Part shown: one piece after another, positions 14 to 48,491 of the stretch | Position numbering within the stretch: the stretch's first letter is position 1 | Layout of the letters: every line of letters begins with the position of its first letter | Assembly (NCBI RefSeq): GCF_011297335.1 | Contig: NZ_JAAOTJ010000024.1 | Coordinates: 1-64,000, forward strand | Length of the DNA: 64,000 nt | Source: Catellatospora methionotrophica | GTDB lineage: Bacteria; Actinomycetota; Actinomycetes; Mycobacteriales; Micromonosporaceae | Reading direction: 5' to 3' | Notes under the pieces: generated by a model | Database searches by the model: none | Seen by the model: only the letters and a program-made list of their open reading frames with translations | Told to the model about the DNA's origin: nothing | Program-made: the position numbers and the translations under genes

Positions 14-81
14 CGCCGCAACTCTTAAAGAGTTGCGGCGTCAGGAGGGTCCGGAGGCCGCGACTCTTTAAGAGTTGCGGC
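14..81. repeat. Composite palindrome-pair element, copy 1
   Basis: A perfect 27-nt palindrome (14-40, core AACTCTTAAAGAGTT, centre at 27) is followed after a 17-nt spacer by a second 25-nt copy (57-81) whose only irregularity is a G-T wobble. The same arrangement, with the same spacer length and similar spacer sequence, recurs at 47161-47227. This copy lies just 3' of livM. Seen directly. A role as terminator, REP-like repeat or protein-binding site is inference. Confidence 0.85.
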
Positions 82-105
82 AGGGGGAGGTCAGGGGCCG
101 GGGGG

Positions 106-1230
106 TCAGGGGCGGGGTGGTGGGGTCACGGCTCGGCGGAGGGCGGTTAGGCGGGTGCCGAGGCTGGCGAGGCCGCCGGGGAAGAAGTAGACGGCCAGGA
201 TGAAGATGGTGCCCAGGACGAACAGGGGCTGGGACAGGGGGCCTGCGAGCACGCCGGGTAGGGAGTCGACGGCGTCGGAGCCGCCGAAGTCGGTCAGGCG
301 GTGGTCCAGGTAGGTGAACAGGACGCCGCCGATTACGGGGCCGAACCGGGTGCCCGGTCCACCGAGCACGACCATGACCAGCAGGGTCAGGGTCAGGTCC
401 GACGACGCGACGTGCGGGGAGGCACCGGCCGCGAGCAGCAGGTACACCACGCCGCCGAGGGCGGCCAGCGCGCTGGACAGGGTGAAGGACACCAGCTTGA
501 AGCGGTACGGGTCCAGCCCCAGCACGCCGATGCGCCGCTCGTCGTCGCGCAGCCCGGCGAAGACCCGCCCGGTCGGCGACTGCGCGACCCGGTGCAGCAC
601 CACCACGACCAGCGTGAGGTACGCCAGCGCGATCCAGTACAGGTTGACCGTGTTGACGACGCCGACCAGCGCGTCGGGCAGCCCGGACGAGGCCAGCGCC
701 AGGCCCTCCTCGCCGCCGGTCAGGCCGCCCGGGTCGCGGGCCACCAGGATCGCGCCGACCTGCCCGAACGCCAGGGTGACCATGGAGAACGCGATGCCGT
801 GCACCCGCAGCGCGACCGCGCCCAGCGCCGTGGCGACGGTCGTCGCGAACAGCACCGCCAGCAGCGCGGCCAGCGGCAGCGGGTAGCCGTACTTGGTGAT
901 CAGGATGTCGGTGCCGTAGACGCCGAGCGCGAAGTAGAGCGCGTGCCCGAACGACAGCAGCCCGGTGCGCCCGAACAGCAGGTCGTATCCGGCCGCGAGC
1001 CCGCCGAAGACCAGGCACAGCGCCAGCACCTGTAGCGCCCCGGGCGAGTTGATCGGCCCGTCGAACAGCCCGGGAATCGTGATCCCGCTGTACGGCAGCA
1101 CCGCCAGCAGCGCGAACGCCGCCACCGGCCAGAACCGCTTCACCAGCGCCGACGTCGCCGGACGGGCGGGCGCGGTGGGCACGCCCGGCCGGTCCGGGGT
1201 CTGCGCCACGGGAGTCTGCGTCGCCGTCAT
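106..1230 (-). CDS. livM: Branched-chain amino-acid ABC transporter permease (LivM type)
   Basis: Second membrane permease of a LivKHMGF-type importer, 374 aa. About ten hydrophobic segments follow a roughly 35-residue Pro/Ala/Thr-rich N-terminus. The conserved GYDLLFGRTGLLSFGHA block (after about residue 80) and the GGPGTRFGPVIGG loop typical of LivM are present. The ATG at 1230 overlaps the livH stop by 4 nt (ATGA), so a longer reading frame extending upstream through livH is not the gene. It is last in a five-gene minus-strand operon and is followed by the palindrome pair at 14-81. Substrate specificity (Leu/Ile/Val, amides or other) cannot be read from the sequence. Confidence 0.93.
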   Translation of the reverse strand: MTATQTPVAQTPDRPGVPTAPARPATSALVKRFWPVAAFALLAVLPYSGITIPGLFDGPINSPGALQVLALCLVFGGLAAGYDLLFGRTGLLSFGHALYFALGVYGTDILITKYGYPLPLAALLAVLFATTVATALGAVALRVHGIAFSMVTLAFGQVGAILVARDPGGLTGGEEGLALASSGLPDALVGVVNTVNLYWIALAYLTLVVVVLHRVAQSPTGRVFAGLRDDERRIGVLGLDPYRFKLVSFTLSSALAALGGVVYLLLAAGASPHVASSDLTLTLLVMVVLGGPGTRFGPVIGGVLFTYLDHRLTDFGGSDAVDSLPGVLAGPLSQPLFVLGTIFILAVYFFPGGLASLGTRLTALRRAVTPPPRP

Positions 1231-2117
1231 GCTGTCGCCGCCTTTCCGGCCAGGCCCGCGGGACGCCACAGCAGCACGACGGCCAGCAGTGCGACCACGC
1301 AGATGTCTCCGGCGCCCGAGGTGCCGTAGTAGTTGACGAACTGCTGGAGCAGGCCCACCGCGACCGCGGCGATCGCCGAGCCCGACACCGAGCCCATGCC
1401 GCCGATCACGACCACGATGAAGGCGAAGATCAGCAGCGAGGCTCCGCTGGTCGGCGAGACGCTGCCGAAGTACACCCCGGACAGCGCGCCCGCGAGGGCT
1501 GCGGCGGCCCCGCCGATGGCGAAGACCAGGGTGAACGCCTTGCGCACGTCGATGCCGAGCGCGGTGACCATCTCCCGGTTCTCCACCCCCGCCCGGATGA
1601 TCAGGCCGTACCGGGTCCAGCGCAGGAAGGCCAGCAGCAGGCCGAGCACCACCAGGGCGGCGACGATCAGCAGCAGCCGGTCCAGCGGCACCCGGGCTTC
1701 GGCGATGGTGACGACCTGCTGGGTCCACGACGGGCGCGGGAACGGGCGCGGGTCCGCGCCGAACCCGGCCTGCAGTGCGGCCACCCCGGCCAGCGACAGG
1801 CCGACGGTGACCAGCACCTGTTCGATGGTGCGCGAGTAGAGCGGCCGGATCATGACCAGCTCGACCAGCGCGGCGACCACGGTCCCGGCCAGCACGCCGA
1901 ACGCGACGGCGAGCACGAAGCCCCATCCGTCCGATCCCGCGCCGGGCAGGTTGCCCGCGGCCCACCAGGTGGCGTACGCGCCGACGGACAGGAACAGCCC
2001 GTGCGCGAAGTTGAGCACGTCGGCGAGCCCGAACACGAGCGACAGCCCCGACGCGACGAGGAAGTACAGCGCCGCCAGGCCGAGCCCGGTGACGGTCATC
2101 AGGACGATCGTCGACAT
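1227..2117 (-). CDS. livH: Branched-chain amino-acid ABC transporter permease (LivH type)
   Basis: First permease of the importer, 296 aa, with about eight membrane segments. The N-terminal GLSLVFGLADVLNFAHG motif and the later VVIGGMGSVSGS loop are family hallmarks. The ATG at 2117 shares one base with the livF stop (TGATG). Its own stop overlaps livM by 4 nt, so livF, livH and livM should be translationally coupled. It is expected to pair with LivM in the membrane and be driven by LivG and LivF. Confidence 0.93.
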   Translation of the reverse strand: MSTIVLMTVTGLGLAALYFLVASGLSLVFGLADVLNFAHGLFLSVGAYATWWAAGNLPGAGSDGWGFVLAVAFGVLAGTVVAALVELVMIRPLYSRTIEQVLVTVGLSLAGVAALQAGFGADPRPFPRPSWTQQVVTIAEARVPLDRLLLIVAALVVLGLLLAFLRWTRYGLIIRAGVENREMVTALGIDVRKAFTLVFAIGGAAAALAGALSGVYFGSVSPTSGASLLIFAFIVVVIGGMGSVSGSAIAAVAVGLLQQFVNYYGTSGAGDICVVALLAVVLLWRPAGLAGKAATA

Positions 2118-45784: not shown

Positions 45785-46004
45785 GATGTGCTCCAAGTCA
45801 CGTAGTCGTCCTGTCGCGCTGCGTATTGCCAGCGTAAATCGTGTCGTGCCAGGTCGCCCCCGGTGGAAATCCCGTTGACAAGGCCATCGTCGACCGAAGA
45901 TGTCGCGTCCGGCACGTGCGGGGCGGGTCGCCAAACGGTTACCCGCGGGGCAAGATGTTGCTCGAACTGAACCTAACCTCAGGTCCGAGAACCGGGAGAA
46001 CGAC

Positions 46005-47108
46005 ATGTCCGACTTCAAACCGGGCCTGGAGGGCGTGATCGCCTTCGAGACCGAGATCGCCGAGCCCGACAAGGAAGGCGGCGCGCTTCGCTACCGGGGC
46101 GTCGACATCGAGGATCTGATCGGCCAGGTCTCCTTCGGCAACGTATGGGCGCTGCTGGTGGACGGCAAGTTCGGGCCGGGCCTGCCGCCCGCCGAGCCGT
46201 TCCCGGTGCCCGTGCACTCCGGTGACATCCGCGTCGACGTGCAGTCCGCGGTCGCCATGCTCGCCCCGTACTGGGGCCTGGGCCAGCTGCTCGACATCTC
46301 CGACGAGCAGGCCCGCGAGGACCTGGCCCGGGTGTCGGTGACGGCGCTGTCGTTCGTCGCGCAGTCGGCCCGCGGCCTGGGCCTGCCCGCCGTGCCGCAG
46401 AAGGAGATCGACAAGGCGCAGACCATCGTCGAGCGCTTCATGAAGCGCTGGCGCGGCGAGCCCGACCCGCGCCACGTCAAGGCCGTCGACGCGTACTTCA
46501 TCTCGGCCGCCGAGCACGGCATGAACGCCTCCACCTTCACCACCCGCGTCGTCGCCTCGACCGGCGCCGACGCCGCGGCCTGCATCTCGTCGGGCATCGG
46601 CGCGCTGTCCGGCCCGCTGCACGGCGGCGCCCCGTCGCGGGTGCTGCACATGATCGAGGGCGTGGAGCGCTCCGGCGACGCCGAGGGCTACGTCAAGGGC
46701 GTGCTGGACCGCGGCGAGCGCCTGATGGGCTTCGGCCACCGGGTCTACCGGGCCGAGGACCCGCGTGCCCGCGTGCTGCGCCGCACCGCCAAGGAACTGG
46801 GCGCGGCCCGCTACGAGGTCGCCGAGGCGCTGGAGAAGGCCGCGCTGGCCGAGCTGCGCGCCCGCCGCCCCGACCGGGTGCTGGAGACCAACGTCGAGTT
46901 CTGGTCCGCGGTCGTGCTCGACTTCGCCGAGGTGCCCGCGCACATGTTCACCTCGATGTTCACCTGCGCCCGGGTGGCCGGCTGGTCCGCCCACATCCTG
47001 GAGCAGAAGAAGCTGAGCCGCCTGGTCCGCCCGTCGGCGACGTACGTCGGCCCCGGCACCCGCAAGGCCCAGCAGGTCGAAGGCTGGAACGCCATCAGCC
47101 ACCACTGA
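46005..47108 (+). CDS. Citrate synthase (type II, short form)
   Basis: 367 aa from the ATG at 46005 (CGGGAGA upstream). GALRYRGVDIEDL, then GALSGPLHGGAPSRVL, GFGHRVYRAEDPRA (catalytic His) and RPSATYVGPG near the C-terminus. The short length and context are those of the second actinobacterial citrate synthase often found beside serC. It condenses oxaloacetate with acetyl-CoA; a 2-methylcitrate role cannot be excluded. A strong hairpin follows. Confidence 0.92.
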   Translation: MSDFKPGLEGVIAFETEIAEPDKEGGALRYRGVDIEDLIGQVSFGNVWALLVDGKFGPGLPPAEPFPVPVHSGDIRVDVQSAVAMLAPYWGLGQLLDISDEQAREDLARVSVTALSFVAQSARGLGLPAVPQKEIDKAQTIVERFMKRWRGEPDPRHVKAVDAYFISAAEHGMNASTFTTRVVASTGADAAACISSGIGALSGPLHGGAPSRVLHMIEGVERSGDAEGYVKGVLDRGERLMGFGHRVYRAEDPRARVLRRTAKELGAARYEVAEALEKAALAELRARRPDRVLETNVEFWSAVVLDFAEVPAHMFTSMFTCARVAGWSAHILEQKKLSRLVRPSATYVGPGTRKAQQVEGWNAISHH

Positions 47109-47118
47109 CCCGAACCGA

Positions 47119-47155
47119 CGGCGAAGGGCGCCCGCTCCGCGGGCGCCCTTCGCCG
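47119..47155 (+). terminator. 16-bp hairpin after citrate synthase
   Basis: Arms 47119-47134 and 47140-47155 are perfect complements with a 5-nt loop (CTCCG), starting 11 nt past the stop. Very GC-rich stem, no T-run. Probable transcription terminator. Confidence 0.8.
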
Positions 47156-47160
47156 TCCCC

Positions 47161-47227
47161 GCCGCAACTCTTAAAGAGTCGCGGCCTCAGGGCGGCCTGG
47201 TCACCACGACTTTTTAAGAGTTGCGGC
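47161..47227. repeat. Composite palindrome-pair element, copy 2
   Basis: A 25-nt palindrome with one wobble (47161-47185, core AACTCTTAAAGAGT) is followed after exactly 17 nt by a second, more decayed copy (47203-47227, ...TTTTTAAGAGTTGCGGC). Spacers of both loci share TCAGG and GG-rich segments, and CAGGGGG follows in both. Lies between citrate synthase and serC. Confidence 0.85.
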
Positions 47228-47366
47228 AGGGGGTGGGCGTGAGGACCGTCACGGGCGAATGGGTGGGACGGGGGGTGGGGGTGCGTCGTTGAGGTGGGAG
47301 AATGCGGTGTTGGCAGCGTCGCCGATGCTTTCTCGCACGATCTGACACGCCTGAAGGACTGATGTC

Positions 47367-48491
47367 ATGGCCGAGACGCCGATCACGATCCCTGCCGAGC
47401 TCCTGCCTGTCGACGGCCGGTTCTGCTGCGGCCCGTCCAAGGTTCGGCCCCAGGCGGTGGAGGCGCTCAGCGCGGTTTCCAGTTCCTTCCTCGGCACCTC
47501 GCACCGGCAGAAGACGGTGAAGAACCAGGTCGCCCGCTTCCGGCAGGGCCTGGCCGACTTCTTCGGCCTGCCCGAGGGCTACGAGGTGATCATCGGCAAC
47601 GGTGGCACCACCGCCTTCTGGGAGGTGGCGGCGTTCTCGCTGATCAAGGACCGGGCGCAGTTCGCCACGTTCGGCGAGTTCGGCGCGAAGTTCGCCAAGG
47701 CCGTCAAGGACGCCCCGTTCCTGGGCGCGCCGACGGTGCACAAGGGCGAGCCGGGCAGTGCCGCCTTCCTGACCGCCGAGGCGGGCGTGGACGCGTACGG
47801 CATCACCCAGAACGAGACGTCGACCGGTGTCGCCGTGCCCGTGCAGCGGGTGGCGGGGGCCGACCAGGGCGCGCTGATCCTGCACGACGCGACCTCGGCC
47901 GCGGGTGGCCTGGACGTGGACCTGACGCAGAGCGACGTCTACTACTTCGCGCCGCAGAAGTGCTTCGCCTCCGACGGCGGCCTGTGGATCGCCATCCTGT
48001 CCCCGGCCGCCATCGCGCGCGCCGAGGAGATCAAGGCGGGCGGGCGGTACATCCCGGCGTTCCTGGACCTGGTCACCGCGATCGAGAACTCGCGGCTGGA
48101 GCAGACCCTGAACACCCCGGCGCTGGCCACCGTCTTCCTGGCCGCCGAGCAGACCGACTGGATGAACGCGCAGGGCGGCCTGTCCTGGGCGGCGCAGCGC
48201 ACCGCCGAGAGCGCCGAGATCCTGTACCGCTGGGCGGAGAAGTCGCCGGTCGCGACCCCGTTCGTGACCGACCCGGGGCTGCGCTCCAACGTGGTCGCCA
48301 CGATCGACTTCGCCGAGGGCGTGGACGCCGCCGCGATCGCCAAGACGCTGCGGGCCAACGGTCTGGTCGACACCGAGCCGTACCGCAAGCTGGGCCGCAA
48401 CCAGCTGCGGGTCGCGCTGTACCCGGCCATCGACCCGTCGGACGTGCAGGCGCTGACCGCCAGCATCGACTACGTGATCGAGCAGCTGTAG
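47367..48491 (+). CDS. serC: Phosphoserine aminotransferase
   Basis: 374 aa. Fold type I PLP enzyme with RFCCGPSKVRPQAVEAL at the start, LGTSHRQKTVK (phosphoserine site), NGGTTAFWE (cofactor phosphate) and Lys198 in YFAPQKCFASDGG as Schiff-base lysine. This is the actinobacterial form of SerC. It converts 3-phosphohydroxypyruvate to phosphoserine in serine synthesis; it may also serve the PLP route. A textbook terminator follows at 48509. Confidence 0.93.
   Translation: MAETPITIPAELLPVDGRFCCGPSKVRPQAVEALSAVSSSFLGTSHRQKTVKNQVARFRQGLADFFGLPEGYEVIIGNGGTTAFWEVAAFSLIKDRAQFATFGEFGAKFAKAVKDAPFLGAPTVHKGEPGSAAFLTAEAGVDAYGITQNETSTGVAVPVQRVAGADQGALILHDATSAAGGLDVDLTQSDVYYFAPQKCFASDGGLWIAILSPAAIARAEEIKAGGRYIPAFLDLVTAIENSRLEQTLNTPALATVFLAAEQTDWMNAQGGLSWAAQRTAESAEILYRWAEKSPVATPFVTDPGLRSNVVATIDFAEGVDAAAIAKTLRANGLVDTEPYRKLGRNQLRVALYPAIDPSDVQALTASIDYVIEQL

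Follow-up and report, generated by a model that had tools for sequence, protein, structure and literature searches.

Gyrase, among others, binds the BIMEs of Escherichia coli. A REPIN is described as a pair of REPs in inverted orientation around a diverse spacer, and a RAYT as the enzyme that copies it (PMC8049555); for REPINs characteristic distances, e.g. 71 bp, compensatory changes and excision events have been reported (PMC3116915). Among tagged REPs one family is described as sitting inside small GC-rich palindromes (PMC3733652), and the main text of that paper makes no mention of actinobacter-, Micromonospora or Streptomyces. Mapping of 3' ends in Streptomyces clavuligerus is reported to have yielded 182 structured ends that carry a U-rich tract and 353 that lack one, with an enrichment of C and G around the terminators (PMC8269248). 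Among the open-licence papers listed, none had a title that dealt with repeats of this kind in Catellatospora or Micromonosporaceae.

The window, a stretch of 64,000 nucleotides of Catellatospora methionotrophica, carries two copies of a repeat that we call family 1. This is a multi-copy, lineage-limited repeat whose length hardly varies in Catellatospora. We interpret it, with a probability of roughly 55%, as a REPIN-like hairpin element whose mobiliser, in the genomes tested, is something other than a RAYT or has since been lost, and which has been kept at transcript ends.

Family 1 in the window and in its genome

An earlier note on this DNA had described two similar elements at 14-81 and 47161-47227. 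Both were confirmed, with full extents of 14-82 and 47160-47228, and the 17-nt gap between the palindromes and the CAGGGGG 3' of the element were borne out in each. In a search of the window, the core ACTCTTWAAGAGT (up to two mismatches) occurred four times, always inside the two copies; shuffled windows held a mean of 0.08 and a maximum of 2, and four occurrences were reached in 0 of 100 shuffles. The Rfam search of the window returned only a tRNA above the curated score and no match on either element.

Copy 1 (14..82, covariance-model match of 82.8 bits) begins 13 nt from the contig end. It consists of a left near-palindrome, CGCCGCAACTCTT-A-AAGAGTTGCGGCG (14..40), which is an inverted repeat with 13-nt arms that are 100% complementary, a variable middle (41..57) of nearly fixed length whose sequence differs among copies, and a right near-palindrome, CCGCGACTCTT-T-AAGAGTTGCGGCA (58..82). 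A G-rich tract follows on the plus strand (83..118), and an ORF on the minus strand with a branched-chain amino acid transport permease domain (106..1965; PF02653, 3.7e-30; true start uncertain) has its 3' end toward the copy. Copy 2 (47160..47228), with ACTTTTTAAGAGT in its right palindrome, lies 3' of the stop codon of the citrate synthase gene (45900..47108, plus strand; PF00285, 2.1e-92). Downstream of it is a class-V aminotransferase gene (47367..48491, plus strand; PF00266, 1e-16) which we take, by resemblance, to be SerC-like. The earlier note was also right that copy 2 is preceded by a hairpin of its own: this is a separate, perfect 19-bp GC-rich hairpin on the plus strand (47117..47157), terminator-like and without a T-run, and a similar one stands at the same place in the relatives G002, G003, G005, G006 and G010. 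Neither of the two elements, nor any of their palindromes and middles, is assigned a strand, because each near-palindrome repeats the other in inverted orientation, which makes the family-1 element twofold symmetric.

The source genome (G000, 8.39 Mb in 56 contigs) holds at least 93 family-1 copies, which disposes of the concern that the two in the window might be the only ones. This number is made up of 79 paired copies, from the window and 76 other stretches, and at least 14 places beyond these stretches. The 76 stretches were taken around pattern matches, 49 of them from a half-site list that ignores spacing and 27 from a pattern allowing spacings of 37-47 (our own count). Two contained no pair: L052 holds a decayed copy and L065 a copy cut by the contig start. 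A reversed control pattern gave 0 or 1 matches.

The element is about 69 bases long and is formed by two GCAACTCTTNAAGAGT-type near-palindromes, 42 or 41 bp apart and in mirror orientation, around the variable middle. The consensus of 78 copies, the remaining one of the 79 being omitted as it is cut by a contig end, is TGCCGCAACTCTTAAAGAGTCGCGGCnTCnGGGnnnnCCnGAGGCCGCGACTCTTTAAGAGTTGCGGCA. All 73 G000 pairs (up to three mismatches in all, spacings of 18 to 120 allowed) are spaced 41 or 42, and with the same range allowed so are 57 of the 58 pairs in named Catellatospora loci, where very different spacings are undersampled since the pattern that yielded these loci required a gap of 24-40 nt. The arm centres are complementary (A/T) in 65/73 G000 pairs. 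Beyond the 69 nt it is chiefly a composition that persists, C-rich on the left and G-rich on the right. The first 10 flanking positions of 77 copies summed to the same pairing as shuffled flanks (5.21 vs 5.21), and a stem extending past the 69 nt was consequently rejected; the longest single runs, 10 and 9 vs shuffled means of 7.5 and 5.8, are somewhat higher.

Nearly all cores in the fetched G000 stretches are paired: against 79 pairs, the 13-nt core stood unpaired in two places, one of these at a contig start. This figure counts against an uptake signal of the kind that Neisseria and Pasteurellaceae use in their terminators, for which inverted pairs of a short conserved sequence at gene ends are described (PMC1852404) and would speak in its favour here. 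Moreover the genome matches the half-site pattern 219 times, whereas uptake signals are said to number 1,000 or more, and the core occurs in just 8 of 354 genomes of the family (six genus members, G019 of another genus, and G026 with one match), being missing from the other 346. We disfavour this explanation and regard it as extremely improbable.

In a hand-made list, 16 of 112 G000 contig ends have a family-1 copy, whole or cut, no more than 340 nt away, compared with 0.8 expected. The assembly thus tends to break at family-1 hairpins, and the start of the window is one such break.

Folding and placement behind genes

At minimum energy, the RNA of either window copy folds into a single long hairpin rather than two (8-90 around copy 1, -63.9 kcal/mol, z -10.7; 47154-47236 around copy 2, -56.7 kcal/mol, z -9.6). 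Across the copies, 85.2% of the pair cells of this 32-pair hairpin hold standard pairs and 14.8% are unpaired, so that many copies are imperfect. Changes on both sides are found in 18 of the 32 pairs, a number reached in 0 of 500 shuffles and also higher than in slid versions of the structure. The compensatory changes for which the earlier note had proposed to look are in this sense present, while the pair types are no more numerous than expected by chance (98/500 shuffles). The structure of two small hairpins has 87.1% of its cells paired and shows both-side changes in 4/24 pairs, which 176 of 500 shuffles equal; its count of cells with both-side changes was reached by 7/500 shuffles and its covariation score by 5/500. 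The long hairpin has the better support, the two small hairpins being weaker in the number of pairs with both-side changes.

The palindromic arms are the reason, together with the nearly fixed spacing, for keeping a reading in which the element is a site in duplex DNA. Two protein dimers would sit on one face of the helix with about four turns between them, in a nucleoid, insulator or roadblock role, and the potential to form a hairpin would be incidental to the mirror arrangement. Each arm is near-palindromic, which a long hairpin does not need, and the high pairing of the two-palindrome structure just given fits such a site. Against it, some copies keep the long pairing at the expense of the arm palindrome: at columns 19 and 51 G-C is changed to C-G in 11/78 copies (the columns are unpaired in 15/78), with the long pairing kept and the arm palindrome broken. 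With the further points on spacing given below, we hold the duplex site to be unlikely while still a serious candidate.

Gene neighbours were assigned with our own codon-based gene caller. Of the 79 G000 copies, 33 lie between convergent and 29 between tandem genes and 3 between divergent ones, 12 have no neighbour at a contig end and 2 are inside a called gene. With the remaining gaps of these loci (60 nt or longer) as reference, the 65 intergenic copies with two called neighbours are enriched in convergent gaps (p = 1e-11) and depleted in divergent ones (p = 1e-6). In G019, 28 of the 34 family-1 clusters could be used, six being too close to a stretch end; 15 are convergent, 5 tandem, 2 divergent and 6 inside called genes. 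In two loci of this genome, L199 and L200, several family-1 palindromes lie within very long called genes and could be in-frame insertions. One G019 copy (L045:1490-1572) is followed by CCCCCTTTTTTT, so that this copy looks like an ordinary T-tailed terminator.

This placement might be explained primarily by function, the element being a bidirectional transcript-end hairpin, i.e. an I-shaped or Rho-assisted terminator and exonuclease stop, whose repeat nature would be incidental. From either side C-rich RNA would precede the hairpin, and the AT-rich arms would supply A- and U-tracts. The location behind stop codons and the strong folds agree with this, as do the mapped ends of S. clavuligerus (PMC8269248), and convergent gaps that hold no copy lack the C-rich left and G-rich right flanks (C averages 0.64 on the left and G 0.67 on the right of 25 convergent copies, against 0.36 and 0.36 in 28 gaps without one). 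In addition, in several of the decayed copies of G001 and G007, which have 18 and 22 covariance-model matches, the inner hairpin is still perfect and the outer parts have decayed. However, neither a conserved 13-nt core nor a fixed length is required by a terminator. Copy 2, like the family-2 copies of G002 and G003 described below, already has its own hairpin in front of it; the terminator scan found no T-tailed intrinsic terminator (GC hairpin then T-run) in the region of copy 2; and 3/65 copies lie between divergent genes. That transcript ending is the primary explanation seems to us improbable. Position, folding and the actinobacterial 3'-end data (PMC8269248) together make a transcript-end function of the family-1 hairpin plausible in itself.

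Distribution, turnover and two further families

Covariance-model matches to family 1 were obtained in 8 of the 11 genus genomes, with at least 150 each (both strands counted) in G000, G002 and G006 and none in G004, G008 and G009. None of the other carriers was among the 396 genomes of a phylum sample, in which the own genome alone matched, and viral contigs gave 0 matches. A scan of named genomes gave at least 60 matches, and all among those listed are Catellatospora; some of the elements in named Catellatospora loci are identical to those in relatives, e.g. L123 and G010:C12:26116.

G019, with 584 forward and 583 reverse core matches, is organised differently. Its family-1 spacing is not fixed, ranging from 37 to 47 with one of 59 (17 pairs), the core occurs both singly and paired, and outer and inner half types are mixed. 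The centres are complementary in 12/20 pairs and non-complementary in 8/20. One 76-nt hairpin is common to two loci except for two centre bases. Spacings such as 37 and 44 are out of phase on the helix and speak against the two-dimer site introduced above.

At the site behind citrate synthase the presence of family 1 differs between species. Copy 2 is missing at the same place in 7/7 readable relatives (the region was not recovered for G001, G004 and G007), and G000 alone has the element. In G003, G005 and G006 the hairpin runs almost directly into the next conserved stretch, in G002 and G010 a short C-rich/G-rich stretch, which may be a target or an excision scar, stands there, and the element is likewise missing in G008 and G009. 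Read by eye, the stretch missing from G006 is 82 nt long and includes copy 2 (47156..47237, no strand); its junction holds only an ambiguous CG, and no target-site duplication, such as would be expected of a MITE, could be defined. At a second locus family 1 is present in G000, G005 and G006 and decayed in G001 and G007, the unrelated family 2 occupies G002 and G003, and G008 has neither (G004, G009 and G010 were not recovered). Families 1 and 2 thus replace one another between species at this locus. The reading of mobility rests on these two loci, one of presence/absence and one of replacement.

Orthologous copies were compared in 19 pairs from 15 loci, partly non-independent, that were left after 8 of 27 locus pairs had been dropped (two of G000 with itself, three with decayed G001/G007 copies and three repeats). 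In the core 13/456 positions differ, a figure that is biased low and nearly circular as the loci were found via exact core patterns. In the middle 17 nt, 132/272 positions differ (16 equal-length pairs), the spacing is nevertheless unchanged in 16/19 pairs and off by 1 in the other 3, and 24/38 flanks of 60 nt contain a gap. A spacing that survives such a change of the middle would also be expected of the duplex site. Separately found intact copies share sites despite strongly changed middles, which the choice of loci does not explain. This needs either selection on the core or copy-by-copy replacement at the same site; the second locus shows that replacement happens.

When the fetched loci (about 1.9 Mb, overlaps included) were scanned for pairs of like palindromes, GCAGTTTCNNNGAAACTGC pairs and one CGCTTTGCTGCAAAGCG pair came up besides family 1. 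Of the 10 hits outside family 1, eight fall into family 2, family 3 or a variant of family 1 in L143; the other two, in L070 and L140, are GC-rich pairs. Family 2, TTTCSGGGAAACTGC-N22-GCAGTTTCCCSGAAA in mirror orientation (L306-L325, L266, L267, L129 and L179), was found in 11 of 101 genomes searched, which are 11/11 genus members, with 1 to 27 copies per genus genome by a strict pattern. Its spacing is 41 in 39/42, counted over fetched loci with some places entering twice through overlaps, and its GGG/CCC centres are complementary in 21/25. Twenty copies were placed: 8 convergent, 11 tandem, 0 divergent and 1 inside a called gene. Family 3 consists of CGCTTTGCWGCAAAGCG pairs and occurs in G019 alone of 14 genomes searched (L189:3817 and L326-L333), its 19 matches corresponding by our count to 16 distinct places of 55 nt each (the pattern allowed spacings of 34-42). 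Here the spacing is 41 in 15/16, with the same double counting over overlapping loci, and the A/T centres are complementary in 11/15. Copy numbers of families 1 and 2 across the 11 genomes gave rho -0.54 (p 0.08), with counts that are unequal and in part lower bounds, and we base no claim of a relation on it.

The three families are unrelated in sequence and share one build. That spacings of 41/42 are mostly kept in all of them despite a variable middle is again what two dimers on duplex DNA would predict; a geometry so nearly the same in three unrelated families points to a recogniser or mechanism that they share. The proposal of the earlier note that a conserved pair of dyads is a unit, with protein binding, an RNA cruciform or a non-autonomous mobile repeat as candidate functions, and not two chance terminators, gains support from the copy number, the 41/42 spacing, the presence/absence at citrate synthase and the two further families. 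It is a tentative step further, which we consider a little short of even odds, that there is a geometry-defined class of REPIN-like elements in Actinomycetota, with at least three unrelated families 41-42 bp apart that a non-RAYT recogniser spreads and keeps and that replace one another at gene-end sites across species.

The mobiliser and the comparison with known systems

A RAYT was considered as the mobiliser and rejected, since the copy-rich genomes G006 and G019 have no match to PF01797 (Y1 transposase). Among the 28 genomes searched for this domain, 6/11 genus members and 3/17 others have matches. For about 4-5 kb around the Y1 genes of G000 (3/3), G003 and G007, none of the three cores occurs, those of G002, G005 and G010 being less examined. 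The three Y1 genes of G000 and that of G007 are adjoined by an IS605 OrfB gene. They appear as IS605-type elements, three in G000 (L334, L335 and L336) and one in G007 (L338), in which a 150-aa Y1 transposase is found beside OrfB (TnpB).

For the REPIN-like hairpin element that we favour, the following course of events can be suggested. Family 1 would be a short non-autonomous repeat which as single-stranded DNA or RNA may fold into a hairpin of up to 32 pairs. An enzyme recognising the hairpin or its two ends would have copied and moved it, and the geometry of this enzyme would have set the length of the element. Insertions would have persisted mainly behind stop codons. Retention may have come from a benefit to the cell, with the hairpin, transcribed from either side, ending or capping RNA and insulating convergent genes. 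Copy-rich REPIN-like families in G006 and G019 without a Y1 match make a testable question of what copies and keeps such repeats. The 11 related genomes, with between 0 (covariance model) and more than 90 family-1 copies, form a natural series for finding the recogniser or mechanism.

Compared with known systems, family 1 resembles the BIMEs of E. coli in having regularly spaced palindromes of alternating orientation at 3' ends. With the uptake-signal pairs in terminators described in PMC1852404 it shares an inverted short conserved sequence and a hairpin behind genes; unlike these, it has far fewer copies, its presence is patchy and, in the fetched G000 stretches, its core is hardly ever unpaired. 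The GTAG- and CGTC-tagged REP dimers, as described in PMC3733652, also lie mainly between convergent or tandem genes and near stop codons, but family 1 has no GTAG or CGTC end, neither tetranucleotide being found in its consensus TGCCGCAACTC...GAGTTGCGGCA, and its spacing is almost invariant.

The differences from REPINs as they have been described are this missing end, the lack of a RAYT linked to the copies, the actinobacterial host, a distance of 41/42 bp instead of 71 or 110 bp, and ends that are each a near-perfect palindrome. Among known systems REPINs nevertheless come closest. Since the build closely matches theirs but the tag and the RAYT do not, family 1 is filed as REPIN-like and not as a REPIN. 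Like the REPINs described in PMC3116915 and PMC8049555, e.g. the GI REPINs of Pseudomonas fluorescens SBW25, it has mirror-oriented conserved ends around a variable middle and a characteristic distance, which is observed in Catellatospora whereas the distance varies in G019. It likewise forms a hairpin with compensatory changes, is extragenic, mainly at convergent or tandem 3' ends, is accompanied by other families in the same genome, and shows gain or loss of copies at a site between close relatives, at one locus and with replacement at a second.
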